From: Lachnospiraceae bacterium 28-4
GTDB taxonomy: Bacteria > Bacillota > Clostridia > Lachnospirales > Lachnospiraceae
Length of the DNA stretch: 45,288 nucleotides
Assembly (NCBI GenBank): GCA_000403275.2
Contig: KE159600.1
Span: forward strand, 842,576-887,863
Reading direction: 5' to 3'
Part shown: piece after piece, positions 12,841 to 27,846 of the stretch
Layout of the letters: the number at the start of each line of letters is the position of its first letter
Position numbering within the stretch: position 1 is the first letter of the stretch
The notes under the pieces: model-generated
The model's database searches: none
What the model was told of the DNA's origin: nothing
Seen by the model: the letters and a program-made list of their open reading frames with translations, nothing else
Program-made: the position numbers and the translations under genes

Positions 12841-13506
12841 GTGCTAAATTATATTTGGGCTTTTATGATTATGATCGGAGTGATCTACGGAGCAATGACA
12901 GGAAATATGCGGGAGGTGAGCAACGCTGCGCTGAATTCCGCAGGAGAGGCGGTCTCTTTGTGTATCACGATGATGGGTGTAATGGCGTTGTGGGTGGGGC
13001 TGATGGAGATCGCCCAGACTTCAGGGCTGATTGCGAGGCTGACAAAGGGGATCCAGCCTTTTGTGTCGTTTATGTTTCCCGGGATTCCTAAGGGGCATGC
13101 GGCGAGGGAGTATATCTCTACGAATATTATTGCGAATGTGCTTGGGCTGGGGTGGGCGTGTACGCCGGCAGGGCTTAAGGCCATGGAGGAGTTGGCGAAG
13201 CTGGAGGAGGAGAGGGGGAATCCGGGGTATATGCATGCGGACGGGATTATTACAAGCGGCGGTGCGGAAATGGCTGGCGGAAAGAAAGGAAAACAAGAGC
13301 GAATTGCCAGCAATGAGATGTGTACGTTTTTGATTTTGAATATTTCTTCCCTGCAGTTGATACCGGTGAATATGATTGCGTACAGAAGCCAGTATGGCAG
13401 TGTGAACCCGGCAGGGATTATTGCGCCGGCAATTGTGGCGACGTTTGTCAGTACGTTGACGGCGGTGGTGTATTGTAAAATGAAAGATAGGAGACGGAGA
13501 GTGTGA
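12841..13506 (+). CDS. spmA: spore maturation protein A
   Basis: A 221-residue membrane protein with a nucleoside-recognition/gate domain; in Bacillus SpmA and SpmB affect spore core dehydration. The start is GTG with GGAGGAAGG upstream. Hydrophobic segments occur at ~1-20, 38-60 and near the C-terminus. The stretch GLKAMEELAKLEEER (~111-125) marks the point from which the downstream partial copies match. A poorly conserved linker (~126-155) leads into the conserved tail RIASNEMCTFLILNISSLQLIPVNM. SpmB, normally next door, is absent; a terminator lies over the stop codon and the accessory island begins there. The last ~110 codons probably came with the most recently inserted block. Confidence 0.9.
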   Translation: MLNYIWAFMIMIGVIYGAMTGNMREVSNAALNSAGEAVSLCITMMGVMALWVGLMEIAQTSGLIARLTKGIQPFVSFMFPGIPKGHAAREYISTNIIANVLGLGWACTPAGLKAMEELAKLEEERGNPGYMHADGIITSGGAEMAGGKKGKQERIASNEMCTFLILNISSLQLIPVNMIAYRSQYGSVNPAGIIAPAIVATFVSTLTAVVYCKMKDRRRRV

Positions 13507-13526
13507 GGACTCTCCGTATTTGTTTT
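13494..13526 (+). terminator. terminator overlapping the spmA stop codon
   Basis: ACGGAGAGT pairs with ACTCTCCGT around loop GTGAGG, followed by ATTTGTTTT. A related hairpin follows the spmA-like fragment ending at 24272, so the terminator may travel with the repeated 3' end. Confidence 0.75.
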
Positions 13527-13671
13527 GCGTAAATCAATTAGACTCATTTGAAAATAATATGAAGTAAAAAAATATATATTTATAAAAATATATTCTGTTT
13601 TATTGGATATAAATATATATTATACAAGATCTAATCGAATAATTGACCCAATAAAATCATAAAATTATATA

Positions 13672-13698
13672 TTGACTTATAGATAATATTGGTATAAT
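13672..13698 (+). promoter_or_regulatory. candidate promoter of block 1
   Basis: TTGACT is followed after 15 bases by TATAAT, which carries an extended -10 (TGG immediately upstream), in a very AT-rich region 30 bases before the block 1 regulator gene. Confidence 0.55.
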
Positions 13699-13727
13699 GT
13701 ATAATAAAATTATATGGGAGGAATAAA

Positions 13728-14708
13728 ATGGAGTATAAAGATATTACAGATAAATTTATAAAAGAATATTCAGACTATAAGAGTGATGTTATTAATTTTA
13801 GTGAGTATATAGAAGTAAATTGGAAAAATTCCTTGTCTGGAGATCAACTTCGTATTTTATTACAGGGTATAGATGTGGATTTTATATTAAAAAGCCTGAT
13901 TTATAATGTTGAGACAGTGAAAAGATATAAAAGTAAAACAAAAGCAAAACGCTATGCTACAGTAATTGGGCAGTTTTTCAATTATATAAGAAAAACAACG
14001 GATATTGTAAATCCCGATTTATATGATGCAATTTCATATAACCGATCGCGAGAAAACTCGTATATGCAGCAAATGATGGCTTATATAGATAAGTGCGAAA
14101 TGCTGGCTGGGATTGTTGAGCAGGAGCCGTTGACATCAACTGAAGCCGAAAAAGTATTAATATGGGCAAATGAACAATTTACTGCGCGGGAATGGGAGGA
14201 TGCAACCAGTTTTAGAAAAGCAGTGGCAGCTATAGGGATAAAGATGATGATGTTATATGGAATTACATATCGTGAATTAAGAAAAATGAAATGGGATGAC
14301 TATAATGAAGTGTATGATTGCATCACTGTTAATGGTTTTGAACTTCGGTTGCCGTTGAAATTATCTATTCAACTAAGAGATATAAAAGATTTCGTTTTTG
14401 ATAAAAAAATTGTAAATAAAGAAAAGTTAATGTTTGCTGGTTTTCGGGGGGAAGCATGGAATGATATAACATCATCTTCCGGAATACCTGATTATATGGG
14501 GATGCTGATTGGTATTACAAGTGTGACAAGTGTTGTAAAATATGGTATAAGTCAACTTTTGAAAGCGGGATTAAGTGATTCGGTTATAAAAAAGATGACA
14601 GGCGCGAGTGAAAAAGTTATTCAAGGCTGTTTGCTTCAGGAGGACAATGAGTTGAAACAGATTATTAATACAAAAGTACTTATGGCAGATTGGTATTATG
14701 AATTTTAA
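13728..14708 (+). CDS. catalytically degenerate tyrosine-recombinase-fold protein (MrpR-like)
   Basis: A 326-residue protein with the layout of a phage integrase: a helical N-terminal SAM-like region (~50-115) and a C-terminal catalytic-type domain. The segment LYGITYRELRKMKWDDY (~176-192) aligns with the box I consensus TGLRxxELxxLxWxDI, but Thr180 replaces the catalytic Arg. In box II (~264-272) the HxxR motif is absent, and KKMTGASEKVIQGCL (~288-302) has neither the usual GH nor the nucleophile Tyr, which is Cys301. It therefore cannot act as a standard recombinase. Enzyme-dead proteins of this fold, such as the SPbeta repressor MrpR, bind DNA as regulators, which is my preferred role. GGGAGG precedes the start. 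Confidence 0.72.
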   Translation: MEYKDITDKFIKEYSDYKSDVINFSEYIEVNWKNSLSGDQLRILLQGIDVDFILKSLIYNVETVKRYKSKTKAKRYATVIGQFFNYIRKTTDIVNPDLYDAISYNRSRENSYMQQMMAYIDKCEMLAGIVEQEPLTSTEAEKVLIWANEQFTAREWEDATSFRKAVAAIGIKMMMLYGITYRELRKMKWDDYNEVYDCITVNGFELRLPLKLSIQLRDIKDFVFDKKIVNKEKLMFAGFRGEAWNDITSSSGIPDYMGMLIGITSVTSVVKYGISQLLKAGLSDSVIKKMTGASEKVIQGCLLQEDNELKQIINTKVLMADWYYEF

Positions 14709-14749
14709 AATTTCGACTATAGAAAGAGGAAGAAATTTGGGAGAAATAT

Positions 14750-15634
14750 ATGAAAGATTTTTCTTTTTGGGAAGAGTATGAAGGTACACCTGAGGGTAGC
14801 GGCCGTAGCGAAAAAATATGGCTGATGAATCCTGACACAGGACGGACGGGTTTATTTAAATTTAAGAAAGATATTTCGACAACGGATCATGTTTCGGAAT
14901 GTATAGCAAGTGACTTGGCGAATATTATTGGGATTCCTTGCGCTAAATTTGAGGTTGGATTATATAAAGGCAGAGAAGGCTCTATGAGTTACAGTATAGT
15001 TGACAATAAAAAGGAAACTCTTATTGAAGGAATTTATTGTATTAGTCTGAAATACGAGCATTTTGATACTGAAACCTTAATGGACTCAAAGACAAAAGAT
15101 AAATATTCCTTGGAAATGATTAAAAAAGCATTGGAACCATTAGGATTGTTTTGCGATTTCCTGCCGATTTGCATATTTGATTTTTTGATAGGGAATACGG
15201 ACAGGCATCAGAGTAACTGGGCGTTAATAAGAAAAGATAAGGTAATGCGATTGAGCCCGCTATATGATAACAGTTCTTCTCTTTGCGCTTATGTCGCAGA
15301 GTCAAAGATCAATCAGTATTTGGGAAATGATTTAATGTTATGGAAATCATTGGTTGATACGAAGTCAAAGTCGATTATTCGCATTAGCAGCCGAGATACA
15401 AAACAGCCTACACATTTAGAGGTAATTAAATACATTCATAATAATTATTTCGAGCAGACAATAGAAATTGTAAAGAAAATAAAGGAATTGCTGACAGAAG
15501 ATGTGATTTGCGTGGTAGTAGATAAGTATATAGAAATGATTTCAATAAACAAAACAGACCTGATTAAAAAGTATCTTTTTTCAAAATTGCAGTTACTGAA
15601 AGAAGTATATGGAGATGTAGATTATGAGTATTAA
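14750..15634 (+). CDS. HipA-type serine/threonine kinase (HipT-like)
   Basis: A 294-residue protein matching the HipA kinase core but without the N-terminal subdomain 1. A glycine-rich segment EGSGRSEK lies at ~15-22; the catalytic loop GNTDRHQSNW (~148-157) contains Asp151 and Asn156; the metal-binding PLYDNSSSL (~170-178) contains Asp173. HipA/HipT toxins phosphorylate aminoacyl-tRNA synthetases and stop growth, so this may be a toxin or an infection-triggered effector. The downstream gene overlaps by 11 bases and carries the missing HipA N-terminal-like part. Target and toxicity are inferred. Confidence 0.8.
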   Translation: MKDFSFWEEYEGTPEGSGRSEKIWLMNPDTGRTGLFKFKKDISTTDHVSECIASDLANIIGIPCAKFEVGLYKGREGSMSYSIVDNKKETLIEGIYCISLKYEHFDTETLMDSKTKDKYSLEMIKKALEPLGLFCDFLPICIFDFLIGNTDRHQSNWALIRKDKVMRLSPLYDNSSSLCAYVAESKINQYLGNDLMLWKSLVDTKSKSIIRISSRDTKQPTHLEVIKYIHNNYFEQTIEIVKKIKELLTEDVICVVVDKYIEMISINKTDLIKKYLFSKLQLLKEVYGDVDYEY

Positions 15635-16316
15635 AAATGGTAATGATTATTTGTATTTAATTTGGAAGTCAGGGCAATCCGGCCAACAATACATTGTTGG
15701 TCAGTTGACGAAAAATAGTCGTTATGAATTTCAATATTGTGATGAGGTAAAAAATGCAATCGAGGATGGATTTGCACCATTACTATGTTTCCCTGACCTA
15801 AATAAGCAGTATGAAGATGAAAAACTTTTTTCAGTTTTTTCTAGTCGTTTGCCAGACAAAAAAAGAAAAAACATTAAAGATATTTTGAAGAAATATGAAT
15901 TAGAAGATTATGATGAGTATGCATTACTTAAAAGAAGCGGAGCAAGGCTTCCAATTGACAATTTGGAGTTTATTGATCCTATTCTGGATGGAGAAAAAGA
16001 TATAACGAGAATTTTTTTTGTATCAGGAGCCAGACATTACCTGAATTGTGAAGGGGATGATTGTTTAAAAGCGGTAGAAATTACAAGAGGAGATGAGGTT
16101 TCTTTAAAAAAGGATTCAGAAAACAAATATGATATAAATGCAGTGCAAGTGTTGGACCATTCAGGGAAAATATTAGGTTATATTCCGCGATATTATAGCA
16201 GTAGTGTGGCTGAATTGTTGGAAACAAAGAAAAAGATTTCATGTCATGTATATAATGTTGATAAAAATAAAAATTGTAATGAGTGTATCAAGATAATAAT
16301 GGAAATTAAAAATTAG
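15624..16316 (+). CDS. HipA N-terminal-like (HipS) domain fused to a HIRAN domain
   Basis: A 230-residue protein. The N-terminal ~90 residues, with YLYLIWKSGQ, QYIVGQLTKN and YEFQYC, resemble HipA subdomain 1, the piece that is a separate protein (HipS) in HipBST systems. Residues ~128-215 (RHYLNCEG, LKAVEITRGDEVSLKKDSEN, YDINAVQVLDHSGKILGYIPRYYS) match a HIRAN domain, a small fold that binds DNA ends or damaged DNA in helicases and also occurs alone. It overlaps the kinase gene by 11 bases, so stoichiometric partnership is likely. I infer an antitoxin or sensor role; it is not shown by sequence. Confidence 0.72.
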   Translation: MSIKNGNDYLYLIWKSGQSGQQYIVGQLTKNSRYEFQYCDEVKNAIEDGFAPLLCFPDLNKQYEDEKLFSVFSSRLPDKKRKNIKDILKKYELEDYDEYALLKRSGARLPIDNLEFIDPILDGEKDITRIFFVSGARHYLNCEGDDCLKAVEITRGDEVSLKKDSENKYDINAVQVLDHSGKILGYIPRYYSSSVAELLETKKKISCHVYNVDKNKNCNECIKIIMEIKN

Positions 16317-16396
16317 TATATTTATAGCTATGGTAAACGGATAGATGGTTTTAGCAAGTAATAAATCTTGGTTTTAAAAAAGTTATCAAAAAGTTC

Positions 16397-16414
16397 GTGT
16401 CATTAACTTGACAC
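16397..16414 (+). repeat. palindromic junction site, copy 1
   Basis: GTGTCA-TTAACT-TGACAC: two perfect 6-base arms around a 6-base centre. It is flanked by AAAAAGTTC on the left and by AAGGGG then GCTTGAAGGC, the start of the spmA-like fragment, on the right. The layout resembles a tyrosine-recombinase core site. Confidence 0.75.
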
Positions 16415-16420
16415 AAGGGG

Positions 16421-16698
16421 GCTTGAAGGCAATGGAGGAGTTGGCGAAGTTGGAAGAGGAAAGAGGGACACCAGGATATACTTCTGTAGACGAAAGACGC
16501 GTCGCCAGCAATGAGATGTGTACGTTTTTGATTCTGAATATTTCGTCTCTACAGTTGATACCCGTAAATATGATTGCCTACAGGCAGCAGTACGAGAGCG
16601 TGAATCCCGCGGGGGTTATTGCGCCGGCGATTGTGGCGACGTTTGTGAGTACATTGACTGCGGTGGTGTATTGTAAGGGAAAGAATAGAAGATGGTAA
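16421..16698 (+). pseudogene. spmA 3'-end fragment, copy 2
   Basis: Encodes GLKAMEELAKLEEERGTPGY, a shortened linker, then ASNEMCTFLILNISSLQLIPVNMIAYRQQYESVNPAGVIAPAIVATF, ending KGKNRRW. It matches the last ~95 codons of SpmA and has no start, so it is displaced debris rather than a gene. It differs from the intact copy in many synonymous and some amino-acid positions, so it is not a recent exact duplicate. Confidence 0.88.
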
Positions 16699-16945
16699 TG
16701 ATTTCTATATTAAGCAAGATTTTGATTATACATAAAAAGTTAATTCTTGTTAGTGAAGGTATAGGAGTAATTAAGTGAAAGTAGTACATTCTTTCTTGAG
16801 TCCTACATACTAAATAAAATTTAAATGTGTTTATGAAATATAAGGTGGAATTTGTGTGATTTATGCAAAACGCTAATTGTTTTTCCTTAAAAGTTTTGTT
16901 AAAATTACATATAACTAGTCAAACCTTATATTTTTGGAGGTTATG
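16699..16945 (+). other. AT-rich region before block 2 genes
   Basis: About 247 bases with no recognisable gene, RNA or strong terminator. It probably contains the promoter of the radical SAM operon, but no convincing -35/-10 pair stands out. The TGGAGG at 16935-16940 is the ribosome binding site of the next gene. Confidence 0.4.
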
Positions 16946-17914
16946 ATGCTTAAAGAAATTTCAATAGAAATCATTAGAAGATGTCCTAATAATTGTATTC
17001 ACTGTTCTTCATTATCTAACGAATACTGTGACGAAGTTCTAAATTATGATCTATTTACAGACGTAGTTCGTAATGCAGCGTCATTGGGCGCAAAGACAAT
17101 ATGTCTATCGGGTGGAGAACCTTTTCTGCATAGTAGAATTGTTGATATGGTCAAATTTGTTGCTTCACTTGGTTTACAAGTATACATATATACCAGTGGT
17201 GTTATTTTTAATATGCAGAATCAGCGAACATTTATTAGCAGAGATGTCCTAAAGACGATTTCGAAAGATGTAACAAAACTGATTTTTAATTTAGAAGCGG
17301 CAACATCGCAAACATATGATGCAATAATGGGAACAAAGGATTGCTTTGAAATTATGAAGCAGTCTATTTGTAATGCGCATGAAATGTCTATAATTACAGA
17401 GGCTCATTTTGTTCCAATGAAACTTAACGTTAGTGAAGTAAAAGAAGTTGTTGCTTTATGTAAGACATTGAATATATCAAAAATAAGTTTTTTACGTTTA
17501 GTTTTACATGGTCGCGCACAGCAAAATGAAGCGAAAGTGGCATTATCTGATGAAGAACTAGAACAATTGAAGAGCTTTTTAGAAAGTTTACAGGTGCATG
17601 CGGAAATAGATGTTCGTGTAGGGGTACCTCTTTCTATAAATACAGAGTGTCACAAATGTGAAGCAGCTAGAGGAAAACTAAATATTAAATATGATGGTCG
17701 GGTATATCCCTGCGAGGTATTTAAGAACGAATGTATGCCATATTGTTTAAAAGGGATGCAGCCAGAAAGTATTTATGATAGATCCCTAACTGATATTTAT
17801 ACTAATTCTCCATATTTATTGCTTGTCCGAGAATTAGAACAGAAATTTTCATGTATGAGGAAGTCCGAAACGTGTGTTGGACAATATTTGATTAATAAAG
17901 AAAGGAATAGTTAA
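16946..17914 (+). CDS. radical SAM protein with a C-terminal cysteine region
   Basis: About 322 residues. The start at 16946 is five bases from TGGAGG; ATG 16943 is possible. Near the N-terminus CPNNCIHC has the CxxxCxxC spacing that binds the 4Fe-4S cluster for SAM cleavage, followed by the GGE-type motif LSGGEPFLH. The C-terminus has CHKCEAARGKLNIKYDGRVYPC and more cysteines, like a shortened SPASM/Twitch auxiliary cluster region seen in peptide- or protein-modifying enzymes. It lacks the viperin-type NxHCxxxCxxC motif. It is first in a tight three-gene operon with an HD protein and a DUF2284 protein; the substrate is unknown. Confidence 0.85.
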   Translation: MLKEISIEIIRRCPNNCIHCSSLSNEYCDEVLNYDLFTDVVRNAASLGAKTICLSGGEPFLHSRIVDMVKFVASLGLQVYIYTSGVIFNMQNQRTFISRDVLKTISKDVTKLIFNLEAATSQTYDAIMGTKDCFEIMKQSICNAHEMSIITEAHFVPMKLNVSEVKEVVALCKTLNISKISFLRLVLHGRAQQNEAKVALSDEELEQLKSFLESLQVHAEIDVRVGVPLSINTECHKCEAARGKLNIKYDGRVYPCEVFKNECMPYCLKGMQPESIYDRSLTDIYTNSPYLLLVRELEQKFSCMRKSETCVGQYLINKERNS

Positions 17915-17916
17915 TT

Positions 17917-19521
17917 ATGGGGGAAAATAAAGATCGGCAGATGTTAGAAAAATGCATTTCCGAAGATGCAATTGCGGTATTTGCAGCTGCTCAGTGTGAT
18001 GAACATCCGTTAGATGAGGATGTTATCAAAAAGCTTCGTGGTCTTTATGAGAAAATTGACAAAGATAGTGATGATTTTTATATTTTTAGATTTCGTCAAG
18101 ATATTATTGATCCACTTTGGAAGGAGTTAATTGAGAAAGCAATAAAGTGTCTGAGATATTGTGATGGACGTGAACCATTTAAAAAAGCAGAAGAAAACGG
18201 GGAGAAAAAGACTCCTAAAGCTTATGGAATAAATGAATTAAAGGAATATTATGATAAATATATAGAGTTTGAACGTTTATTATATGGTTCAAACCGTTAT
18301 TATAGGGATCATGTGGTTCATGTTTTTAGAACATGGTTGTCTGGAACAATGCTGATGGTTAAAAATAATGGGGCATATTTAGAGAAACTTACCATTAATG
18401 AAAAGGATTTTGAAATTATACTTTCTAATGAAGAAAAATTAAGCATGTGGACGATTATAGCGCTTACACATGATTTGGGTTATCCGCTACAAAAAGCAAA
18501 AAATATCATTGATACGACTAGGTCCATGGTGTCTACTTTTATTGCAAATCCTAATATTTCTATGGATTTGTCTTTTCATGGTGTACAAAACTACATGAAT
18601 GATTTTATTGTACGTTTAATGAGTTCAAAAATGGTTAAATATAGAAAAGAGAAGATTGAAGTTAATGGAGTAGAACAAGAAGAACAGTTATACGCGGCTA
18701 GATTGCAACCAAAATATTATTTTAAATTTCAAAAATCTTTAGAAAATAATAGTCATGGCATATTAAGCACTTTGATTATTTATAAATTGCTCACCTATTT
18801 TTTAGAATCTGATTATAGTATAAACGAAGATTATGTATTTAAGTCAGAAGATCAGCGCCAATTTTATATTCGGAGAGAAATTTTAAGAGCAATTGCTTCT
18901 CATACTTGTAATGATATTTATCAACTTTACATGACCGCTTTTTCTTTTTTATTGAGGATATGTGATGATACACAAGAATGGGGACGTAAAAATATTTCAG
19001 AATTATATGTCAGCCAGTCACAAAAGTATGTGCTAAAGGATATTGATTTATATATTGGAGATAAGGACAATGCTTATGTATGCACGATTGATGAAGAATT
19101 TACTGTAAGCGAAAGACAAGATGTTATTATTTTAATTAAAAGATTACATGAACAATCTTTGGACTATGTAACGATATTTCGAGATGGACAAGATACAGGT
19201 TCAAGAAATTTTTCATTTATAAGAAAGTTGTTAATTAAATGTGGGGAAATACAAGTTGCTCTTGAATTAAATATTCTGAAAGATTCGGCATCTGAATTGA
19301 CTGGAAATATTCAATATACTTCAGATGATAGTATAAAAAAAGATTTTGGTTTATCTTTTTTCCAAAAAATTAATGTTGATTTTCAAAAAGGAGTTTGTTT
19401 TTTGAATAGAAAGAAAGAGGAATGTGGAACTATGAAATTTAATAAGAATGGGAATATTAATGAAATAAGAAATTATTCTGATTGGGTAAGCGGAGAGTTT
19501 ACCATATCTTTATTAAAATAG
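17917..19521 (+). CDS. large HD-domain protein
   Basis: A 534-residue cytosolic protein starting 2 bases after the radical SAM stop codon. An HD-type metal site is visible: RDHVVHVFRTW (~131-140, His132 and His135), then ALTHDLGYP (~182-190) with the HD pair at 185-186, and a later His in ASHTCND (~325-331). The first ~110 residues are charged and helical. The C-terminal ~150 residues have no feature I recognise. HD enzymes hydrolyse phosphate esters, including nucleotides and cyclic nucleotides; dNTP depletion is one defence use of the fold. The pairing with radical SAM and DUF2284 is unusual, so a specific role cannot be given. Confidence 0.75.
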   Translation: MGENKDRQMLEKCISEDAIAVFAAAQCDEHPLDEDVIKKLRGLYEKIDKDSDDFYIFRFRQDIIDPLWKELIEKAIKCLRYCDGREPFKKAEENGEKKTPKAYGINELKEYYDKYIEFERLLYGSNRYYRDHVVHVFRTWLSGTMLMVKNNGAYLEKLTINEKDFEIILSNEEKLSMWTIIALTHDLGYPLQKAKNIIDTTRSMVSTFIANPNISMDLSFHGVQNYMNDFIVRLMSSKMVKYRKEKIEVNGVEQEEQLYAARLQPKYYFKFQKSLENNSHGILSTLIIYKLLTYFLESDYSINEDYVFKSEDQRQFYIRREILRAIASHTCNDIYQLYMTAFSFLLRICDDTQEWGRKNISELYVSQSQKYVLKDIDLYIGDKDNAYVCTIDEEFTVSERQDVIILIKRLHEQSLDYVTIFRDGQDTGSRNFSFIRKLLIKCGEIQVALELNILKDSASELTGNIQYTSDDSIKKDFGLSFFQKINVDFQKGVCFLNRKKEECGTMKFNKNGNINEIRNYSDWVSGEFTISLLK

Positions 19522-19531
19522 GATAATAAAT

Positions 19532-20152
19532 ATGAATTTTTTTTGTTGTGCAACAACCAAGTCGGCTACAATTAAGTATGTCGTTGAAATGTACACATCT
19601 TCACCAAGTGGATGTTTCAAATATGAAGATAAAACAAAATTTGATAATTTGTGTAAAAAAGGATGCCCTAACTATTCATATAAATGGTCATGTCCACCGT
19701 ATGCTCCGTTATTTGAAGATTTTGTTTCAGGATGGGAAAAAATACATATTATTTTCATGCATGCTGATATGATTCAATTTGCTTATATTCAAAATGATTA
19801 TTTAAAAATTAAAGCGGCAAATAATATGCTGAAATCAAGAGCAGATCGATTTATTCGGGAAATGGCTAATCAGCATGGAAAATGCATATCAACTGGAAGT
19901 TGTAGACTTTGTAAATCATGCAAACGCAAATTGAATATGCCCTGTGCGCACCCGGAGTTAATGACATATAGTTTTGAGGCATTAGGAATTGATGTAGGTA
20001 GAATGATAAGAGATTATTTCGAAAAACCATTGATATGGTATAAAAGGAATTACTTGCCGGAATATACTTCAGTGGTTTGCGGTATTTTAACAAATGAGAG
20101 TCTTTCCGAGGAATATTTGCAAGTTATGTATAAAAAATATATTACATATTAA
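19532..20152 (+). CDS. DUF2284 cysteine-rich metal-binding protein
   Basis: A 206-residue protein with the DUF2284 pattern: GCPNYSYKWSCPPYAP (~47-62) and the cluster GSCRLCKSCKRKLNMPCAHPELMTYSFEALGIDV (~128-161). At least eight conserved cysteines could bind an Fe-S cluster or other metal. The family often occurs beside methyltransferase or corrinoid genes but its role is not known. It starts 10 bases after the HD gene and ends the block 2 operon. Possible roles include an electron donor or cluster carrier for the radical SAM enzyme; this is inference. Confidence 0.82.
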   Translation: MNFFCCATTKSATIKYVVEMYTSSPSGCFKYEDKTKFDNLCKKGCPNYSYKWSCPPYAPLFEDFVSGWEKIHIIFMHADMIQFAYIQNDYLKIKAANNMLKSRADRFIREMANQHGKCISTGSCRLCKSCKRKLNMPCAHPELMTYSFEALGIDVGRMIRDYFEKPLIWYKRNYLPEYTSVVCGILTNESLSEEYLQVMYKKYITY

Positions 20153-20289: not shown

Positions 20290-20307
20290 GTGTCATTAAC
20301 TTGACAC
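20290..20307 (+). repeat. palindromic junction site, copy 2
   Basis: GTGTCA-TTAACT-TGACAC, identical to the site at 16397, again flanked by AAAAATTTC and AAGGGG, then GATTGAAGGC of the spmA-like fragment. Confidence 0.75.
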
Positions 20308-20313
20308 AAGGGG

Positions 20314-20678
20314 GATTGAAGGCGATGGAGGAACTGGCGAAGCTGGAGGAAGAGAGGGGGACGCCGGGGTATGTGTCTGCAGGGGAAGGCATTTTTGCAG
20401 ACGGAAAGAAAAAGGGGAACAAGACAGGTAAGAGCGGCGGTGAGCTGCCTGTGTCGGCAAATGGAAAGAGCGGCAGGGTTGCCAGCAATGAGATGTGCAC
20501 GTTTTTGATTTTGAATATTTCTTCCTTGCAGTTGATACCGGTCAATATGATCGCGTACAGAAGCCAGTATGGCAGTGTGAATCCGGCCGGGATTATCGCC
20601 CCAGCGATCGTGGCCACGTTTGTGAGTACGCTGACGGCGGTGGTGTATTGTAAAATAAAGAATAGAAAACAGAGATGA
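20314..20678 (+). pseudogene. spmA 3'-end fragment, copy 3
   Basis: Encodes GLKAMEELAKLEEERGTPGYVS, a long Gly/Lys-rich linker (about 45 residues), then the conserved tail VASNEMCTFLILNISSLQLIPVNMIAYRSQYGSVNPAGIIAPAIVATF, ending KIKNRKQR. Its linker is the longest of the copies, showing that the copies come from different spmA alleles. There is no start, so it is not a gene. Confidence 0.88.
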
Positions 20679-20781: not shown

Positions 20782-20991
20782 ATGCTGATTGCAGATAAAA
20801 GAGATTATAGAAGAGGATACGAAAAGCATTACCAGTCATATAAACGACTTAAAAGCCAAAATGCAGATATAAACAGCAGAAGATTACTACTGGTTTATAG
20901 TGTGGAGTGCGGTTTGAAATATAAGCTATTAGATAAATGGAATGAGGAAAATCCTCTAAAAATTTTGGAGGGCAGTGATAAAAAAAGATAA
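20782..20991 (+). CDS. HEPN-like protein, N-terminal part (frame-split)
   Basis: A 69-residue frame with SRRLLLVYSVECGLKYKLL (~32-50), which resembles the first helix motif (Y/F-x-x-E-x-x-x-K) of HEPN-type and related helical defence proteins. It stops at TAA right after a run of seven As (20980-20986). A one-base shift to the -1 frame in that run joins it to the next open frame, giving a protein of about 148 residues. I therefore treat this and the next entry as one gene, either broken, mis-sequenced or made by slippage. GGAAGG lies before the start. The HEPN assignment is tentative. Confidence 0.5.
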   Translation: MLIADKRDYRRGYEKHYQSYKRLKSQNADINSRRLLLVYSVECGLKYKLLDKWNEENPLKILEGSDKKR

Positions 20992-20996
20992 ATATT

Positions 20997-21227
20997 TTGA
21001 AATCCCATAATTTGGAAAGAATATTAAAAGAGTTAGGACAACAGGGAAATTTTAAATTTCCGCGATTGAAGACTGTGCATCAAAATATTGTAGACGCGGA
21101 AGCTTATCATCAGCTTTATCGATACTGCATTAACACACAGGAAAAACAATTAGGTAAAGAAGAAAAGATAGAGGACTCATTAAATGATATCGCCTGTTGG
21201 ATAAAAGAAGGGATGAGAAGACGATGA
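20997..21227 (+). CDS. HEPN-like protein, C-terminal part (frame-split)
   Basis: A 76-residue frame with only a TTG start and no well-placed ribosome binding site, which argues that it is the second half of the preceding gene. It begins KSHNLERILKELG, matching the 'H-x-L-x-x-L' helix that follows the first part in HEPN-like proteins, and contains AYHQLYRYCI and a final helix. Its stop codon TGA overlaps the ATG of the ATPase gene (ATGA), so the two are translationally coupled. Confidence 0.5.
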   Translation: MKSHNLERILKELGQQGNFKFPRLKTVHQNIVDAEAYHQLYRYCINTQEKQLGKEEKIEDSLNDIACWIKEGMRRR

Positions 21228-23851
21228 TGTTATATACATGGAAAGACATAGAAAGAGAGCTGTTGTTAAATAAAGATAAGTGGCAGGGAGTGATTTTCGA
21301 TTCGGAAATATATACTGATGAAATAATCATTCATTTAAAGAAGGGAAAAACTGAGGAAGATGCTAAAAGGATATTAAGGGGGATTTTTGGGGATAAATAC
21401 GATGGCGAGAAAATATTACTGGATTTATCGGTTGAATACTTAGGTGTGCTATTTGAAAGTGATGAGGATGAGGAAAATGATAGTGTAGTCACACCGCTTT
21501 TTAGAAATGTTTTGTATCAGAATACAGCGTATTTTAACGAGCTCATAGAAAAGGAATTACCGGGAGTTCCCGTCCTTGCTTTTCATTCGTACAAAGGAGG
21601 GGTGGGACGTACATTATCTTTGTTGGCTTTTGTTAAAGCATGGTCTGAGTTAAACAACTTAGTGAATGCCCAAAAACTTCTTGTTATTGATGCGGATATT
21701 GAGGCGCCGGGAATTACATGGCTTACTATGAAGCAAGAGGAAACGGCATTTAGTTTTTTAGATCTTTTGGAAGTTACGCAGGAAAAGGATAATACGGATG
21801 AGATTATTGAATTGATTGCAGATAAAATATCGGAATTGACTGTTAAAATAGAAACGGAAAGGGGAAGGGCAGAGCATATTGTTTTACCAACGTATAGATA
21901 TGTGGAGCAATTGCTTGACATGTATGCAAGCCCTGAAAGTCTTGCCACTAGCTATAATAAAAAATATATATTAGCGGAAGTTTTATCAAAATTAGGAAAG
22001 AAAGTAAATGCAGGGTTGGTGTTGATTGACTTGAGGGCGGGACTAAGTGAATTTTCTGCGCCGATACTTTTTGATCCCAGAGTAAAAAAATATATTGTGA
22101 CATCAACATCTTATCAGTCTGTTAAAGGAACAGAAATACTTTTACAACAGTTAAACAAAGGTCTGCCTTTGAATGAGAATTCTAAAATCCCCGAAGTTTT
22201 ACTGACTATGGTGCAAAATGGAATGAAAACAGATGAAATCATTAGCGAATTAGTTGCTGTCTATCATCCAAATGTGGCTGAAAGCGATGATTCAATAACG
22301 GATAATATAGTGACGGAGCTTCCATTTGCAAGTGAATTGGTACACTTAGAAACATTGCCTAAAATTATGGCAAATTTAAGCGGCAGAGATTTCTACAAAA
22401 ATATTTTTGAAATAGTTAAAAATAGTTACATGGTTTCCAAAGAAACAAAGGATGATAGTTTAAAGATATCAAGAAACAAAGTGATAAATAATATTCACGA
22501 GTTTGCCGCAAACCAAATTACAGCAGAAGGGAATGGAACATTTGAAGTATTAATGACAGAGTCAATTCAGAATTTAATTAGAAAGTACAAAAATAGTATT
22601 CCTAATACAGTAATTATGGGTGCGAAGGGATCTGGTAAAACATTTTTATATAGAGAAATGTTAAGAAATCAATATTGGGAAAAGTTCGTTGAACGTATGG
22701 GCAAAAATGAACCAGTATCGAAAGGCTTGGGCGGTGATGCATGTATACTGGCAGTACCCCTTTTGGCTTCAGGAAATGCGGGAGGATTTCTTGAGATTAT
22801 TAAAAATGCCATAGCTAATTACAACAAATGTGGAATGAAAGGGGGAATTAATAATTCAGTATATGTGAATAGTAAGGACATGCTGTTAACGCATGTGAGA
22901 AAAGACCATGATATTTTAGAATGGAAAGAAATATGGAAAAAAGTTATTTTATGTGCATTTGATAAAACATATCAGTCATTGGCAGAACTTGAGGAAGAAT
23001 TGCGGTATAAGCATATAAAGATTGTATTTTTGATAGATGGATTAGAGGAGATTTTTGAGCATACAATATCATCGGAAAATGAAAAAAATGCAATTAGGGC
23101 ATTATGCAGGGATCTGGTTGACGAAGTAAAAATAGCTTATCATAATGTGGGTCTTATGATATTTCTGAGAAAAGATATGGCAAGGGATTCGTTAACTATC
23201 AATTATGAGCAATTTTATTCTTTGTATCGTGATGTTGAATTGCAATGGTCTAATACGGAAGCATTAAGATTGGCAGCGTGGTTGACGAGCCAGGCAGTAC
23301 CAGATTTTTATCGGGGAAATATACCGATTGAAACAGCGTCGGGAGAAGTAATAGAACAGATACTTAATAGATTGTGGGGAGTTAAGCTAGGAAAACCGAC
23401 ATCTAATGAAGCAAATTCATCAAGATGGATTTTGGCGGCATTGTCAGATTTTAATGGACAGTTGCAGGCGCGTGACATTATCAGATTTTTGGAGAAAGCG
23501 ACTGACCATGTAGGCAAAGCAGTGTACGATGATAGATATTTAATGCCTACAGAAATTAGAAAGGCGGTTTCAGAATGTTCCAATGATAAGATTGGCGAAA
23601 TAAGAGATGAAATTAAAGCATTGGGACCGATTTTTGACAAACTGGAACATGCATCGGAAGAAAAAAAAGTTTTACCATTTGCGGCAGATACATTTAATCT
23701 TACGCAGGCAGAAGAAAAGATTATGAAACAGGAAGGTTATCTAAAAATTGATAATGACCGATATTATTTGCCTGAAATTATTAGACATGCTTTAAAGTTT
23801 AAGTATGAAAAAGGTGCGCGTCCCAAGGTGTTGTCTTTGCTGTTGAAATAG
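21224..23851 (+). CDS. KGGVGR-type ATPase with a second P-loop ATPase domain
   Basis: A large (875-residue) cytosolic protein. The start at 21224 overlaps the upstream stop codon as ATGA. The first ATPase domain has a deviant Walker A, FHSYKGGVGRTLS (~121-133), of the ParA/MinD-like class, with VIDADIEAPG (~153-162) as the switch/Walker B region. A second ATPase domain starts with GAKGSGKTF (~466-474) and has a Walker B-like KIVFLIDGLEEIFE (~596-609), like a STAND or AAA-type NTPase. A C-terminal winged-helix-like region may follow. KGGVGR ATPases occur in bacterial conflict systems; with a coupled HEPN-like partner, an effector-plus-sensor pair is plausible but unproven. Confidence 0.78.
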   Translation: MMLYTWKDIERELLLNKDKWQGVIFDSEIYTDEIIIHLKKGKTEEDAKRILRGIFGDKYDGEKILLDLSVEYLGVLFESDEDEENDSVVTPLFRNVLYQNTAYFNELIEKELPGVPVLAFHSYKGGVGRTLSLLAFVKAWSELNNLVNAQKLLVIDADIEAPGITWLTMKQEETAFSFLDLLEVTQEKDNTDEIIELIADKISELTVKIETERGRAEHIVLPTYRYVEQLLDMYASPESLATSYNKKYILAEVLSKLGKKVNAGLVLIDLRAGLSEFSAPILFDPRVKKYIVTSTSYQSVKGTEILLQQLNKGLPLNENSKIPEVLLTMVQNGMKTDEIISELVAVYHPNVAESDDSITDNIVTELPFASELVHLETLPKIMANLSGRDFYKNIFEIVKNSYMVSKETKDDSLKISRNKVINNIHEFAANQITAEGNGTFEVLMTESIQNLIRKYKNSIPNTVIMGAKGSGKTFLYREMLRNQYWEKFVERMGKNEPVSKGLGGDACILAVPLLASGNAGGFLEIIKNAIANYNKCGMKGGINNSVYVNSKDMLLTHVRKDHDILEWKEIWKKVILCAFDKTYQSLAELEEELRYKHIKIVFLIDGLEEIFEHTISSENEKNAIRALCRDLVDEVKIAYHNVGLMIFLRKDMARDSLTINYEQFYSLYRDVELQWSNTEALRLAAWLTSQAVPDFYRGNIPIETASGEVIEQILNRLWGVKLGKPTSNEANSSRWILAALSDFNGQLQARDIIRFLEKATDHVGKAVYDDRYLMPTEIRKAVSECSNDKIGEIRDEIKALGPIFDKLEHASEEKKVLPFAADTFNLTQAEEKIMKQEGYLKIDNDRYYLPEIIRHALKFKYEKGARPKVLSLLLK

Positions 23852-23886
23852 GTATTGATTTTGAGCCTCATGGAATTGTTAAAAGT

Positions 23887-23930: not shown

Positions 23931-23940
23931 CACAAAGTTC

Positions 23941-23958
23941 GTGTCACTAACTTGACAC
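23941..23958 (+). repeat. palindromic junction site, copy 3
   Basis: GTGTCA-CTAACT-TGACAC: arms as in the other copies and one change in the centre. The following G-tract is expanded to nine Gs before CTGAAGGC of the spmA-like fragment. Confidence 0.75.
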
Positions 23959-23965
23959 AAGGGGG

Positions 23966-24272
23966 GGGGCTGAAGGCAATGGAGGAGTTGGCGAAGTTGG
24001 AGGAGGAGAGGGGGACAATGGGGTATCTTCCGGGGAATGCTGGCACAAAAAGAAGTAGAACAGAGCGGATTGCCAGCAACGAAATGTGTACGTTTTTGAT
24101 ATTGAATATTTCTTCCTTGCAGCTAATTCCTGTTAATATGATTGCTTACAGGCAGCAATACGGCAGTGTGAATCCGGCAGGGATTATCGCACCGGCGATT
24201 GTGGCGACATTTGTGAGTACGGCGGTGGCAGTGGTGTATTGCAAATTAAAAGATAGGAAGCGGAGAGTGTGA
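23966..24272 (+). pseudogene. spmA 3'-end fragment, copy 4
   Basis: Encodes GLKAMEELAKLEEERGTMGYLPGNAG, a short linker, then IASNEMCTFLILNISSLQLIPVNMIAYRQQYGSVNPAGIIAPAIVATF, ending KLKDRKRRV, the closest match to the C-terminus of the intact SpmA. It has no start and is a displaced 3' end. Confidence 0.88.
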
Positions 24273-24288
24273 GGACCCTCCGCTTTTT
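24259..24288 (+). terminator. terminator after spmA fragment copy 4
   Basis: AGCGGAG pairs with CTCCGCT, followed by TTTT. It corresponds to the terminator at the end of the intact spmA, with covariation (ACGGAG/CTCCGT versus AGCGGAG/CTCCGCT), which supports it as a real structure. Confidence 0.75.
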
Positions 24289-24395
24289 CATCTGGTAAAT
24301 ATGGCATTGAAATTATTCAATAAAAGAAGTACAATGAATAAAAACAACGAAATTAAATTTTCAACTATATTTTTACCATGTAATTAAGAGGAAGA

Positions 24396-25427
24396 ATGAG
24401 AATGGATGTAATGCTTAAATTTAAAAATGAATTTTTTGAAGAACGTAAAGATTTACTAAGTAAAAATCATGTTTACCGAAATCATATCACTAAATTTATT
24501 AAGTATTTAAGCTTGCCAGATGTGCAGTTATCAAACGCGCCTGCCAGAATTAATATAAATGTAATCGAAGAATGTATCAGATATTATCATAATGAAGGCG
24601 AACTTAATTCCAGATCAACCATGGAGTCGCATCTTGAGTCGGTAAAAAGCTTTTATGACTACTTAAGTGAGACTGGTAAAGCAACTGATATTTTCTCAAA
24701 TTACAATTACAGTAAATTTAAAGATGAAATTGTTGAGAAATATAGCTTACTGGAACCGGTAGAAAGAGGAAGTTATAAATGTGAGGATATCAAAACGATT
24801 CTAATTGAACTGGATAAGGCTATTGATAATTTTCAGGACGAAGTCGCAGGAGTCAGGGAAGAAGAAAGGCATCTACAAAGAATCATATTAAGGCTGTTTA
24901 TTAAGCTGACATTAATTGCGCCAGCTAAGAGAAGTGTAATTACAAGCATCAAAAAATCAGATTTTACGGAGGAATATAAAAAATTATTGATAAATGGCAT
25001 AGATGTCAATATACCTTGTGGTTTGTCCAGAGATTTATGTGCGGCATTAAAATATGCAGAATCAAAGAATAAGGGATCGATAAAGGAGGAAGATAATTTA
25101 TTTGAATATTTGTATAAATATAAGGGTAAATTCCGGGTGGAAAGTCTTAATACATGGTTTTATAATATTGCGCAAGATTTTGGGGTAATGGAGGATATGT
25201 GCAAAGGTAAAAAAACCTTAGCTGTGGAACCAATTAAAAATATGGTAATTCAAATGATGGTTGATAATTTGATCAATCCTGTATTTATATCAAAAATAGC
25301 GGGACTTACACTTACTATGATTGAGGCGACGTATTATCCCAAAGATTGGAGTGCTAAACGCGAGGAAGATATCAACAAGTGCATTAATAAAAGTATCGCA
25401 CAAAATGATTATTATTGTTATGTATAG
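24396..25427 (+). CDS. tyrosine-recombinase-fold protein lacking catalytic Arg residues (MrpR-like)
   Basis: A 343-residue protein with integrase-like layout: N-terminal helical DNA-binding region (~20-100) and a C-terminal recombinase-type domain. At box I, LIAPAKRSVITSIKKSDF (~173-190) aligns with the TGLRxxE consensus but places Lys178 where Arg should be. At box II, VEPIKNMVIQMMV (~277-289) has Glu278 and Lys281 in place of His and Arg. A Tyr is kept at ~313-314 (EATYYP). It is clearly diverged from the block 1 relative. As there, a DNA-binding regulator of the MrpR type is more likely than an active integrase. AAGAGGAAGA precedes the start. Confidence 0.68.
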   Translation: MRMDVMLKFKNEFFEERKDLLSKNHVYRNHITKFIKYLSLPDVQLSNAPARININVIEECIRYYHNEGELNSRSTMESHLESVKSFYDYLSETGKATDIFSNYNYSKFKDEIVEKYSLLEPVERGSYKCEDIKTILIELDKAIDNFQDEVAGVREEERHLQRIILRLFIKLTLIAPAKRSVITSIKKSDFTEEYKKLLINGIDVNIPCGLSRDLCAALKYAESKNKGSIKEEDNLFEYLYKYKGKFRVESLNTWFYNIAQDFGVMEDMCKGKKTLAVEPIKNMVIQMMVDNLINPVFISKIAGLTLTMIEATYYPKDWSAKREEDINKCINKSIAQNDYYCYV

Positions 25428-25459
25428 AATAACTTTTAAATATTGGGGAGAACGCAAGT

Positions 25460-27058
25460 ATGGGAATATATTTAAATCCGGGAAATGAACAGTTTGCAGT
25501 TTCTGTTAATTCTGAGTTATATGTGGATAAGACGGCTCTGATAACATATACGAATAGTCGCATCGGTAAAGACAGGCCACTGATCTGTTCCAGCAGACCG
25601 AGGAGGTTTGGGAAAACAATGGCTGTAACCATGCTGTCGGCGTATTATAGTAAGGGATGCCATTCTGAGGAACTATTTATGGGGCTTAACATAAGTCAAA
25701 ATGAATTTTTTAAGACGCACCTGAATAAATATAATGTAATTTTTTTGGATATCCAGTGGATGTATGGAAATGCGCTTGAGGAAATGAAGAGAAATTCGAC
25801 TCTTAAAGTAGTGAGTTATATTCAGGAACAGGTGATAGCTGAGTTAAGAAACGAATATTCCGAATGTGTCCAAGGGGATGATATTTCACTGCCTTCTGTA
25901 TTGGCTAAAATTAATGTGAAAACAAAAGAACAGTTTATCATTATTATTGATGAGTGGGATTGCCTGTTTCGGGAGGACAAAAATAACGAGAATCTTCAGA
26001 AAGAATATATTAATCTGTTAAGAGGGTTGTTCAAAGGCACTCCATCGGGAGCGTTTCTAAAGCTTGCATATATTACAGGGATTTTGCCAATTAAAAAGTA
26101 CGGCACACAGTCGGCTCTGAATAATTTCCGGGAGCATACGATGGTTAGTCCCAGACAGATGGCAGAATACGTTGGATTTACAGAGACAGAAGTAAGGATT
26201 ATTTGTAAAGAGCACGATATGCCATTTAAAGAGATGCAAAGATGGTATGATGGGTATTATTTTGAAAAGGTAGGGCATGTTTATAGTCCTAATTCTGTCA
26301 TTGAGGCTGTAGATAGCAGGGAATTCGGAAATTATTGGTCAGGGACAGAAACTTATGAGTCTTTAATGATGTATATTGCAATGGACTTTGATGGATTAAG
26401 ACAATTGATTGTAGACATGTTGGGAGGCCAGCGGTGTAGTATTGATGTGGAATCTTTTCAAAATGATATCACTTCATTTAACTCCGCAGATGATGTGGTC
26501 ACGTTATTGATTCATATGGGATACATGGCTTATGATAACAAGACAAAAAAAGTTTTTATTCCAAATGATGAGGTAAGGAGTGCTTTTCTGCGGGCCATTA
26601 AAAATGATGGGTGGGAAGAGGTAATCAGAGCAATTAGCGCATCGGAAGCTTTGCTTAAAGCGACTTTGGCAATGGATGAACAAGCCGTGGCACAGATGAT
26701 ACAGGGAGTCCATATGAAAAGCTCCTCTAGTTTAATATATAACAATGAAATTTCTCTGAGCAGTGTGATTGCACTGGCATATTATAGCGCGTGCAGAGAT
26801 TATACTCTTGTAAGAGAATTGCCGGCAGGAAATGGGTTTGCCGATATGGTTTTTCTTCCTAAACGCACATCCTCAAATCCGGCATTGGTTCTTGAATTAA
26901 AATGGGATAAGACTGCTGAGGGAGCGATAAGCCAGATTAAAAATAAAGGATATGTGTCAGCCCTCAAAGAGTATAAAGGAAATATTCTGCTTGTTGGAAT
27001 TAATTATGAGAAGAAAAGCAGGAAACGTCAATGTAGGATAGAAAAAGTAAAATGGTAA
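25460..27058 (+). CDS. AAA-ATPase-like protein with C-terminal PD-(D/E)XK nuclease domain
   Basis: A 532-residue protein of the family with an N-terminal AAA-ATPase-like domain and a C-terminal restriction-endonuclease-like fold (DUF1703-type). The N-terminus has YVDKTALI, then a non-classical P-loop SSRPRRFGKTM (~44-54), and a Walker B-like FIIIIDEWDCLFRE (~154-167). The C-terminal ~80 residues have GFADMVFLP and ALVLELKWDK, giving the D...ExK nuclease triad. The family is widespread in gut Firmicutes and Bacteroidetes, often in multiple copies in accessory regions; function is not established. It follows the MrpR-like gene by 32 bases and ends 22 bases before the next junction site, with no terminator. 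Confidence 0.85.
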   Translation: MGIYLNPGNEQFAVSVNSELYVDKTALITYTNSRIGKDRPLICSSRPRRFGKTMAVTMLSAYYSKGCHSEELFMGLNISQNEFFKTHLNKYNVIFLDIQWMYGNALEEMKRNSTLKVVSYIQEQVIAELRNEYSECVQGDDISLPSVLAKINVKTKEQFIIIIDEWDCLFREDKNNENLQKEYINLLRGLFKGTPSGAFLKLAYITGILPIKKYGTQSALNNFREHTMVSPRQMAEYVGFTETEVRIICKEHDMPFKEMQRWYDGYYFEKVGHVYSPNSVIEAVDSREFGNYWSGTETYESLMMYIAMDFDGLRQLIVDMLGGQRCSIDVESFQNDITSFNSADDVVTLLIHMGYMAYDNKTKKVFIPNDEVRSAFLRAIKNDGWEEVIRAISASEALLKATLAMDEQAVAQMIQGVHMKSSSSLIYNNEISLSSVIALAYYSACRDYTLVRELPAGNGFADMVFLPKRTSSNPALVLELKWDKTAEGAISQIKNKGYVSALKEYKGNILLVGINYEKKSRKRQCRIEKVKW

Positions 27059-27080
27059 TTTTTGGTATCAAAAAAATTTC

Positions 27081-27098
27081 GCGTCATTGACTTGACAC
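27081..27098 (+). repeat. palindromic junction site, copy 4 (diverged)
   Basis: GCGTCA-TTGACT-TGACAC: one arm and the centre each carry a substitution relative to the copies at 16397 and 20290. It is preceded by AAAAAAATTTC and followed by AAGGGA, then GCTTAGGGCC. Confidence 0.65.
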
Positions 27099-27104
27099 AA
27101 GGGA

Positions 27105-27240
27105 GCTTAGGGCCATGGCGAAGTCGGAGGCGGTCAGCGGCCCTGATAGAGGAAGTGTGGCGGACGGTCTGGGAGCCGCGGGCAGGAGGAAAGGCAAGTT
27201 GTAGAGGAGGGGTTGGCAAATGGGGTAGAGAGAGCAGTAT
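27105..27240 (+). pseudogene. decayed spmA 3'-end fragment, copy 5
   Basis: GCTTAGGGCCATGG matches the crossover start of the other copies. It is followed by a deletion and then recognisable but frameshifted pieces (CGAAGTCGGAGG..., GCGGGCAGGAGGAAAGGCAAG). The conserved tail (ASNEMCTF...) is missing. It is GC-rich like spmA and unlike the cargo. The right boundary is approximate. Confidence 0.55.
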
Positions 27241-27353
27241 TTACATCCGATACTCCTGCCGTTGAAGCTATTATATTTTTGGATTATATAAAATTGTGAT
27301 AGAAAATTTTATTGATGAAGAACAGGCAAAAAAGTTATTGGAGGTGTATTATT

Positions 27354-27542
27354 ATGAATGGAACGAAACCTAAATTTATGGAAAATTTGGTCATTGCCCC
27401 AAGCTATTATGAGCAGCCTGATCCATATGTTAATGCACCGTCTTGTCATGTAAATTTACTGGAACTTTCAAGATATGCAAAGCAATGTGGAAAAAAACTG
27501 GTTGAGCTTACGCAGGAAGAAGTGAGAAATTTTTCAATCTGA
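27354..27542 (+). CDS. small uncharacterised protein of the truncated fifth block
   Basis: A 62-residue protein. GGAGGTG seven bases upstream supports the ATG at 27354. It reads NGTKPKFMENLVIAPSYYEQPDPYVNAPSC and ends GKKLVELTQEEVRNF. I recognise no domain. In another frame just upstream (27296-27375) the peptide ENFIDEEQAKKLLEVYYYEW looks like the tail of a further, truncated small gene. It lies between a decayed spmA fragment and a truncated HNH-like gene, so it is probably a leftover from the oldest block. Confidence 0.55.
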   Translation: MNGTKPKFMENLVIAPSYYEQPDPYVNAPSCHVNLLELSRYAKQCGKKLVELTQEEVRNFSI

Positions 27543-27561
27543 TATTTTAAATACAGTAGTT

Positions 27562-27604
27562 GTAAAAAGCAGGAAGCCTTTATGAGACATATCTTGCTTT
27601 TTAC
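27562..27604 (+). terminator. hairpin with T-run after the small gene
   Basis: GTAAAAAGCAGGA pairs with TCTTGCTTTTTAC (one G-T) around a 17-base loop. The T-rich arm makes it a plausible terminator; the next gene fragment begins 72 bases later. Confidence 0.55.
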
Positions 27605-27675
27605 ATGATAAACAACAACAGTTTTCCAAAAAAATTAAAAAATTCAAATTGTTAAAAAATTAGAAGGTAATTTTT

Positions 27676-27846
27676 ATGCAGCTGCCATATTCAGAAAATA
27701 TAGAAATTCAATATTTAAGCAGGATATTTGATAATACAAGTGAATGCTATAAATTTTTTTGGTTTCAGGCGATTCTTTCTAAAGTGTTGGAAGCTAAGCG
27801 CCATATATTCTACATCAAGGCGCAATGTTCCCTAAAAACCAAATAA
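27676..27846 (+). pseudogene. truncated HNH-endonuclease-like gene (5' end only)
   Basis: A 56-codon frame starting MQLPYSENIEIQYLSRIF, continuing NTSECYKFFWFQAILSKV. This is the N-terminus typical of a family of HNH-endonuclease proteins of Firmicutes (recalled, not searched), which normally run several hundred residues. Similarity stops near codon 41-45, and the rest reads antisense into the 3' end of the leftward kinase gene until a chance stop. It therefore marks the right edge of the island, where the HNH gene was cut off. Confidence 0.65.

Follow-up and report, generated by a model that had tools for sequence, protein, structure and literature searches.

Tandem accretion, cis-mobilizable elements (CIMEs) and the co-transfer of composite elements have been described in streptococci (PMC5704250, PMC5357655), and composite islands of the staphylococcal cassette chromosome (SCC) with recombinase-less members in staphylococci (PMC6243372). 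Streptococcal integrative and conjugative elements (ICEs) with serine integrase triplets disrupt mutT, traG or hsdM (PMC4701971), and MrpR/YopR represent a repressor with a tyrosine-recombinase fold (PMC10516654). The locus set beside them here lies in a stretch of 45,288 nucleotides of Lachnospiraceae bacterium 28-4 (assembly GCA_000403275.2, contig KE159600.1, positions 842,576 to 887,863 of the forward strand), called the window below, where the sporulation gene spmA is followed by four stacked units with cargo, E1 to E4. These units are probably non-autonomous integrated cassettes that accreted in an array, recombinase-less passengers stacked and carried by visiting elements with a triplet of large serine recombinases (LSRs). 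Positions count from the first letter of the window, and G, L and C numbers denote genomes, loci and contigs of the comparison.

Repeated spmA ends and a shared junction site

The gene name spmA is taken over from the original prediction. The features that define the array are the following.

12841..13506, + strand: spmA, intact (self-search matches; Pfam Gate PF07670 below cut-off)
13140..13190, + strand: attB-like site B.B' (GTACGCCGGCAGGGCTTAAGG), crossover region GGG (junction comparison)
From 13171, + strand: spmA 3' part starting at codon GLKAMEEL, the restored 3' end ahead of the E1 cargo
16397..16418, + strand: P half-site (GTGTCATTAACTTGACACAAGG), right end of E1 (motif count)
16420..16698, + strand: displaced spmA 3' end, head of E2 (direct repeats, own-genome matches)
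20290..20311, + strand: P half-site, right end of E2 (motif count)
20313..20678, + strand: displaced spmA 3' end, head of E3 (direct repeats, own-genome matches)
23941..23962, + strand: P half-site, right end of E3 (motif count)
23967..24272, + strand: displaced spmA 3' end, head of E4 (direct repeats, own-genome matches)
27081..27102, + strand: P half-site with one mismatch, right end of E4 (motif count)
27104..27310, + strand: spmA 3' end in ruins, more decayed than any other copy (alignment to the intact end)

An intact spmA followed by repeats of its 3' end had been predicted and was borne out, with starts corrected to 16420, 20313 and 23967 and a ruin at 27104. Comparison of the window with itself gave direct repeats of the spmA 3' end at 13168/13273, 16417/16471, 20310/20448 and 23964/24039. 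In the whole genome spmA has four matches at E <= 0.001, all of them here, one at full length and three from residue 108-110. The ruined copy shares 51% identity with the intact end over 207 columns and was not detected by tblastn for spmA. Pairwise identity among the intact end and copies 2-4 is 76-82%, so the copies are not a recent tandem duplication.

The claim of one and the same site ahead of each copy also stands: the motif GTGTCAyTrACTTGACACAAGG precedes each displaced spmA end by 1-4 bases, the last time with one mismatch. P sites number four in the window (0.00 expected, 0 in shuffles), one at each of the 4/4 junctions, and the whole 4.28 Mb genome contains, at up to three mismatches, these four sites and two on contig C1. 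The units between the spmA ends measure 3.1-3.9 kb each, carry unrelated genes and have a GC content of 28-40% (1 kb windows) vs 42-50% in the 5 kb to their left, which matches the predicted AT-rich, unrelated cargo of 3-4 kb per unit.

Exchange between species and the link to serine recombinases

In relatives, 80 spmA loci were compared, an array being scored as the P core (at most one mismatch) followed by spmA codons around GLKAM. The junction P.B' was present in 16/80 loci, 13 times once and three times twice (L035, L040, L045), so that the proposed check for loci with no, one or several blocks returned 0, 1 or 2 sites. The gene that we take to be spmB lies within 40 bp of spmA in 7/80 loci, likely the empty state; ten of the 80 were set aside because less than 1.2 kb follows spmA, although two of these (L100 and L106) still show spmB. 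The likely spmB of the own genome sits away from spmA, on contig C2. Across 397 genomes of the family the site occurs at up to two mismatches in 12, and at spmA in five of them: G000 (the own genome), G140, G264, G283 and G370. L042 (18616), L049 (17786) and L078 (11859) have a further joining point in spmA, around codon 170, with another P variant (TTAGTCCTAACTTGACACC); in L042 and L049, LSR remnants lie near or among the spmA fragments. A gene row of CRISPR-Cas-like appearance lies downstream of spmA in L044 (10809-19099, its first member a Cas3-like helicase) and L051 (10855-18875); a P site was not seen downstream of spmA in either.

Judging from sequence comparison, the units evidently move, because the same cargo is found in species whose spmA 5' halves are only 65-75% alike. 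Between E3 as a whole and the first unit of L056, identity is 98.2% over 3649 bp, vs 74.5% for the spmA 5' halves. E1 matches L150 (G264) at 92.6% over 3065 bp and L082 at 76%, E2 matches L084 at 75.5% and L046 at 75.8%, and E4 resembles units in several loci at ~84-87%, its last 2.2 kb being 95.7% identical to L040. The spmA ends behave likewise: L035 and L065, which share cargo, agree at 97.6% over 56 codons close to the spmA end vs 67.6% over the first 107, and the intact tail of L056 shares 98.8% with those of L072 and L149 (G264), the first 107 codons 65.7% and 64.8%. Over all pairs, the spmA 5' halves of array-bearing loci average 70.4% (120 pairs) vs 69.6% for the others (2145), and the 3' tails 84.6% vs 75.7%; the array label here comprises loci with tail fragments plus L038, L058, L035, L071 and L074 assigned by hand, and the pairs are not independent. 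Cargo and number thus differ among relatives, as expected from the predicted repeated insertion at one spmA codon that leaves the gene intact, and neither a fixed arrangement everywhere nor same-age tandem duplications without exchange, the outcomes that had been named as refuting it, was found.

The boundaries of the exchanged units were profiled in eight pairs. On the right, identity falls at P in 5/8; the remaining three are uninformative, since the contig ends there in L056 second unit/L071, the cargo on that side differs in L035/L065 and E1/L082 has no P. On the left, identity starts near the crossover codon in L056 second unit/L071 and at about +150 in L035/L065, but L040/L059 (+294) and E3/L056 (+335) become alike only farther in. 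In these last two of the eight pairs the cargo is 95-100% identical (60-bp windows) while the adjacent spmA end is mostly at 73-95% and the linker lower, so that exchange or conversion has also taken place among the repeated spmA ends; the proposal that each block brings its own spmA end therefore does not always hold. An E3-type cassette (85% over 3280 bp) also occurs away from spmA, in L155 (G273:C75, about 8043-11319), with a P site on its right and the spmA end missing on its left.

The nature of P is indicated by genome G283. On its contig C34, spmA is broken off at codon 111-112, at the core, and runs into other DNA; on contig C108, three tandem LSRs (L152 2150-7161; domains Resolvase, Recombinase and Zn ribbon) are followed by P and a spmA 3' end. 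Joined in frame, the two flanks give an open spmA of 227-228 aa. The half-sites form an imperfect dyad with 15/24 matching positions, attained in 5/5000 shuffles. The junction P.B' of the window equals the right junction of this LSR-triplet element. More generally, the exact P core ACTTGACACAA is present in 4/30 windows of 1.5 kb downstream of LSR matches (three of them, L208, L213 and L230, being new places), in 0/30 upstream, in 0/30 on the opposite strand and never in Markov-resampled sequence (40 rounds). If one mismatch is allowed, it is found in 10/30 downstream windows (four of which, L206, L224, L231 and L233, had already been met in the motif search), 1/30 upstream and 1/30 on the opposite strand (resampled mean 0.3, maximum 2). 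A helper for spmA resident in the own genome was considered and rejected: there are 21 matches to a related LSR, and the best match of the third G283 LSR is at 40% (3/30 candidates scored).

Cargo and tyrosine-recombinase-fold proteins

The cargo of the four units comprises the following features.

13507..16419, + strand: E1 cargo (Pfam, PADLOC), with genes 13728-14708, 14750-15634 (HipA_C) and 15624-16316 (HIRAN and Couple_hipA)
13728..14708, + strand: tyrosine-recombinase-fold protein of cluster c42 in E1, catalytic residues lost (alignment, Foldseek on AF2 model)
16934..20152, + strand: E2 cargo, a radical SAM/SPASM protein, a 534-aa protein with no family above cut-off, and DUF2284
20782..23851, + strand: E3 cargo, two small open reading frames (ORFs) and an 884-aa protein, AAA_31/STAND-like below cut-off
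24396..25427, + strand: tyrosine-recombinase-fold protein of cluster c20 in E4, most catalytic residues lost (alignment, Foldseek)
25460..27058, + strand: E4 cargo, AAA-ATPase_like and PDDEXK_9 nuclease (Pfam)

The HipA_C and HIRAN/Couple_hipA proteins of E1 match the PADLOC candidate pair PDC-M03A/B (E 4e-128 and 1.7e-104). The radical SAM/SPASM protein of E2 has a weak match to the viperin model (1e-12), the 884-aa protein of E3 a weak match to PDC-M28B (1e-16), and the AAA-ATPase_like/PDDEXK_9 protein of E4 no PADLOC match. Since the match is very strong in E1, weak in E2 and E3 and absent in E4, the suggested defence role of the modules is well supported for E1 only.

The absence of an evident integrase, as predicted, holds in that the nine larger ORFs of E1-E4 contain no resolvase, integrase catalytic or relaxase family of Pfam; a recombinase is nonetheless likely to be involved, the junction site matching an LSR-triplet attachment site. 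Two of the four units, E1 and E4, start with tyrosine-recombinase-fold proteins (13728-14708 and 24396-25427) that belong to a single superfamily, and Pfam matches gave no such gene in E2 and E3. The product of 24396-25427 matches the N-terminal Phage_int_SAM_1 below cut-off. Structure models of c20 and c42 (predicted local distance difference test, pLDDT, 64-65; predicted template modelling score, pTM, 0.39-0.49) returned Foldseek lists topped by tyrosine recombinases (Cre, XerA, Tn1549 integrase), with SroF, MrpR and YopR lower for the c20 model, weakly in the case of MrpR/YopR (8a0a and 8bj6, E 0.094 and 1.1). When 14 members were aligned to a genuine tyrosine recombinase, three members had retained the second Arg, two the Tyr and one the first Arg, and none had the first His or the later His/Trp, which leaves at most 2/5 catalytic residues per member in 14/14. 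When c20 was compared by hhalign with such a recombinase, only the N-terminal domain could be aligned (probability 3.5%), and a PDB sequence search with c20 gave a chance match only; the modelled fold match supports kinship to tyrosine recombinases. An active integrase in the cassettes was accordingly rejected (none among the nine larger ORFs, the tyrosine-recombinase-like proteins being without most catalytic residues), as was an island that restores the gene end by an active tyrosine integrase of its own, in view of the residue losses in the 14 members.

Family matches (E <= 1e-8) were found in 13/397 family genomes. In 11 regions outside the own genome, the gene lies directly behind spmA in 2, behind tsf in 2, behind the gene of a protein ending in GWGALCVRDSLPL in 1, ahead of CRISPR-Cas-looking genes in 1 (L252) and elsewhere or at a contig end in 5 (the tsf and cas labels were read from the gene listing). 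Genes of c20/c42 usually head their unit, the exceptions being L038 (a 115-aa ORF ahead) and L049 (a c42 remnant before c20). The family gene is situated ~0.13 kb behind tsf in L255 and L257 (G052, G315); these positions suggest tsf as another target gene. A viral source was also rejected: the sole exact pattern match in IMG/VR (L121), amid phage-structural-looking frames, looks like chance, and the c20 protein had 0 matches at E 1e-5 in 72,556 plasmid and 50,697 phage records.

Mechanism, alternatives and relation to known systems

In the proposed mechanism each cassette would combine a cargo module with a spmA 3' end (B') ahead of it and a serine-integrase half-site (P) behind it. A visiting LSR-triplet element would integrate in spmA by attP x attB, giving B.P'-helper-P.B'1-cargo-P.B'2, and could then excise from its attL to a downstream P.B', taking cassettes along; in a new host the helper would exit alone via the nearest attR, leaving B.B'1-cargo-P.B'x. 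The outcome would be an intact spmA with a donor 3' end and one extra cassette at the 5' side of the array, and the canonical attP x attB and attL x attR reactions would suffice. The repeated 0.3 kb spmA ends would recombine or convert among themselves as well, and the dead tyrosine-recombinase-like gene heading many cassettes may encode a DNA-binding regulator like MrpR, or an accessory factor. As some cassettes carry defence-like genes, the array would serve as a store of defence modules. This account agrees with the recurrence of cargo units in different species, in differing order and in arrays of variable length; the carrier step itself we infer.

Several points weigh against it. Circular forms, excision and transfer were not observed, and the account does not explain how cargo was first placed between B' and P. 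On the left, some exchanged units begin away from the crossover codon, which homologous recombination explains too, and L082 (L251 of G268 being the same place) contains an E1-type unit that lacks a recognisable P on its right. The G283 element is split over two contigs, the pairing of its ends being inferred; its third LSR is without a close relative in the own genome (best 40%; 3/30 candidates scored). The P core was not seen in 20/30 LSR windows, many LSRs of which need not be the last of a triplet. A spmA array holding helper and cassettes together was not found, the nearest case being another locus of the own genome.

Direct cassette traffic, integron-like, in which single circles are exchanged via B.B' x P.B' by LSRs acting in trans or with tyrosine-recombinase-like help, is an unlikely alternative. 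The right boundaries at P, the varying position of cassettes (E3 is third here and first in L056), the E3-type cassette at a non-spmA place in G273 with its P site and the usual location of c20/c42 genes at the unit head all speak for it. Serine integrases, however, normally pair attP with attB; the c20/c42 proteins retain at most two of five catalytic residues in all 14 sequences, and E2 and E3 are without a gene of this type. It is still less probable that homologous recombination alone shaped the array, with a few founding LSR events and, after them, RecA-mediated crossovers in flanking DNA and in the spmA ends of 0.3 kb. Exchange boundaries that fall within the spmA 3' end or where it stops (+335 in E3/L056, +294 in L040/L059) and near-identical copies within arrays (98.2% in L045, 99.4% in L056) would fit, but identity falls at P and not within the next spmA end in all five informative pairs, and a late single crossover predicts a donor-like start behind E3 in L056, where the fragment is L071-like. 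An old, immobile tandem duplication of spmA that acquired its intervening genes afterwards, to which the diverged copies and the ruined last one might point, is scarcely credible, given cargo shared by species with spmA 5' halves 65-75% similar, varying copy number, the junction site behind LSRs elsewhere and module exchange between species, its refuting condition.

P sites and similar layouts are also present at other genes. Other LSR elements with P have as their targets the C-terminal part of enolase (G232) and, in L230, an aldo/keto-reductase-like frame, so labelled from reading its translation. The enolase part stands behind an LSR triplet and P site in L198 (7940-8836, G232); because no second copy was found in this one-contig genome, enolase may be split there. 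In G361 (L205, G361:C3:432000-451900), two recQ 3' parts, 1.3 and 1.5 kb long, come after a full-length recQ (833 aa); each has a P-like site before it, and TIR and ADP-ribosyltransferase-family cargo lies between them. A pattern search for the intact recQ motif gave no match, the motif having diverged (EIGRCARDQEPGEC). Contig C1 of the own genome (L140, L141; G000:C1:1226079 and 1234589) carries an LSR triplet and, after it, two P-like sites at a distance of 8.5 kb from each other. The first of them precedes two DEAD helicase genes, the second DUF2397/DUF2398/SbcC-type genes that we take to be Wadjet-like. A short frame next to these sites is similar to the C-terminus of the G195 protein ending in GWGALCVRDSLPL, presumably an S8-type protease. 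P-like sites were also observed ahead of a polysaccharide deacetylase frame in L142, L143 and L146 (G315, G349; PF01522 in L142), a possible further target gene.

A wider picture may be sketched tentatively, being more doubtful than not: a general LSR-driven cassette system of Lachnospiraceae, with cassettes that share the half-site P and each bring the missing end of a different conserved gene (spmA, recQ, the S8-type protease gene, possibly polysaccharide deacetylase, tsf and others), its stacks shuffled between species with the gene kept intact and a dead tyrosine-recombinase family as controller, would make up an integron-like defence store entered via coding sequence. The mechanism proposed for spmA explains how recombinase-less, partly defence-like cassettes could gather and pass between gut Lachnospiraceae at one place, and the result includes a chimeric sporulation gene whose 3' part derives from other species. 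The P core beside a repeated gene end provides a searchable signature of such stores in other genes, recQ being the second example, and attention is drawn to an uncharacterised family of dead tyrosine-recombinase proteins.

The original prediction knew of no described system with this layout; in principle it is known, as accretion of cis-mobilizable elements and as SCC composite islands (PMC5704250, PMC6243372). No literature uniting spmA, integration site and genomic island was found, nor spmA as a target of elements in the literature searched by titles and abstract starts; such a report may nonetheless exist. Like CIMEs accreted with ICEs or integrative and mobilizable elements (IMEs), the cassettes are elements without integration genes that are stacked at one gene, may keep att sites and would be movable with an integrative element (PMC5704250, PMC5357655). 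By the attL/attR definition of a CIME, the right end of the window units is attR-like (P.B') and the left end is B.B' or P.B', not the attL-type B.P'. The streptococcal tandems are mostly at the 3' ends of rpsI, rpmG and rplL and involve tyrosine integrases (PMC5357655), whereas serine triplets are implicated here, with joining points that lie ~0.3 kb before the gene end in spmA and 1.3-1.5 kb before it in recQ, and with units of 3-4 kb.

With the SCC composite islands and pseudo-SCC at orfX/rlmH and the Enterococcus cassette chromosome (ECC), the locus shares LSRs, an intact gene and recombinase-less tandem elements (PMC6243372, PMC6222049). SCC and ECC depend on a CcrAB pair and the orfX end, in place of the three LSRs and spmA here, and no ccr-like gene or LSR was found by Pfam in the nine larger ORFs of the window's cassettes. 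The G283 helper, with three tandem LSRs at the element's end, corresponds to LSR-triplet ICEs/IMEs, which likewise have three same-orientation serine integrases adjoining the disrupted target and short direct repeats, of 2-8 bp there; the targets named are mutT, traG and hsdM, spmA and cassette arrays not being among those described in the available part of that work (PMC4701971). The cassette proteins are like MrpR/YopR in having a tyrosine-recombinase fold with most catalytic residues lost (PMC10516654), and differ in that MrpR is a phage master repressor, to which, as to YopR, their structural match is weak (E 0.094 and 1.1). Set beside all of these, and as far as our searches reach, the target, the triplet helper, the small one-module cassettes and the dead recombinase family are new.

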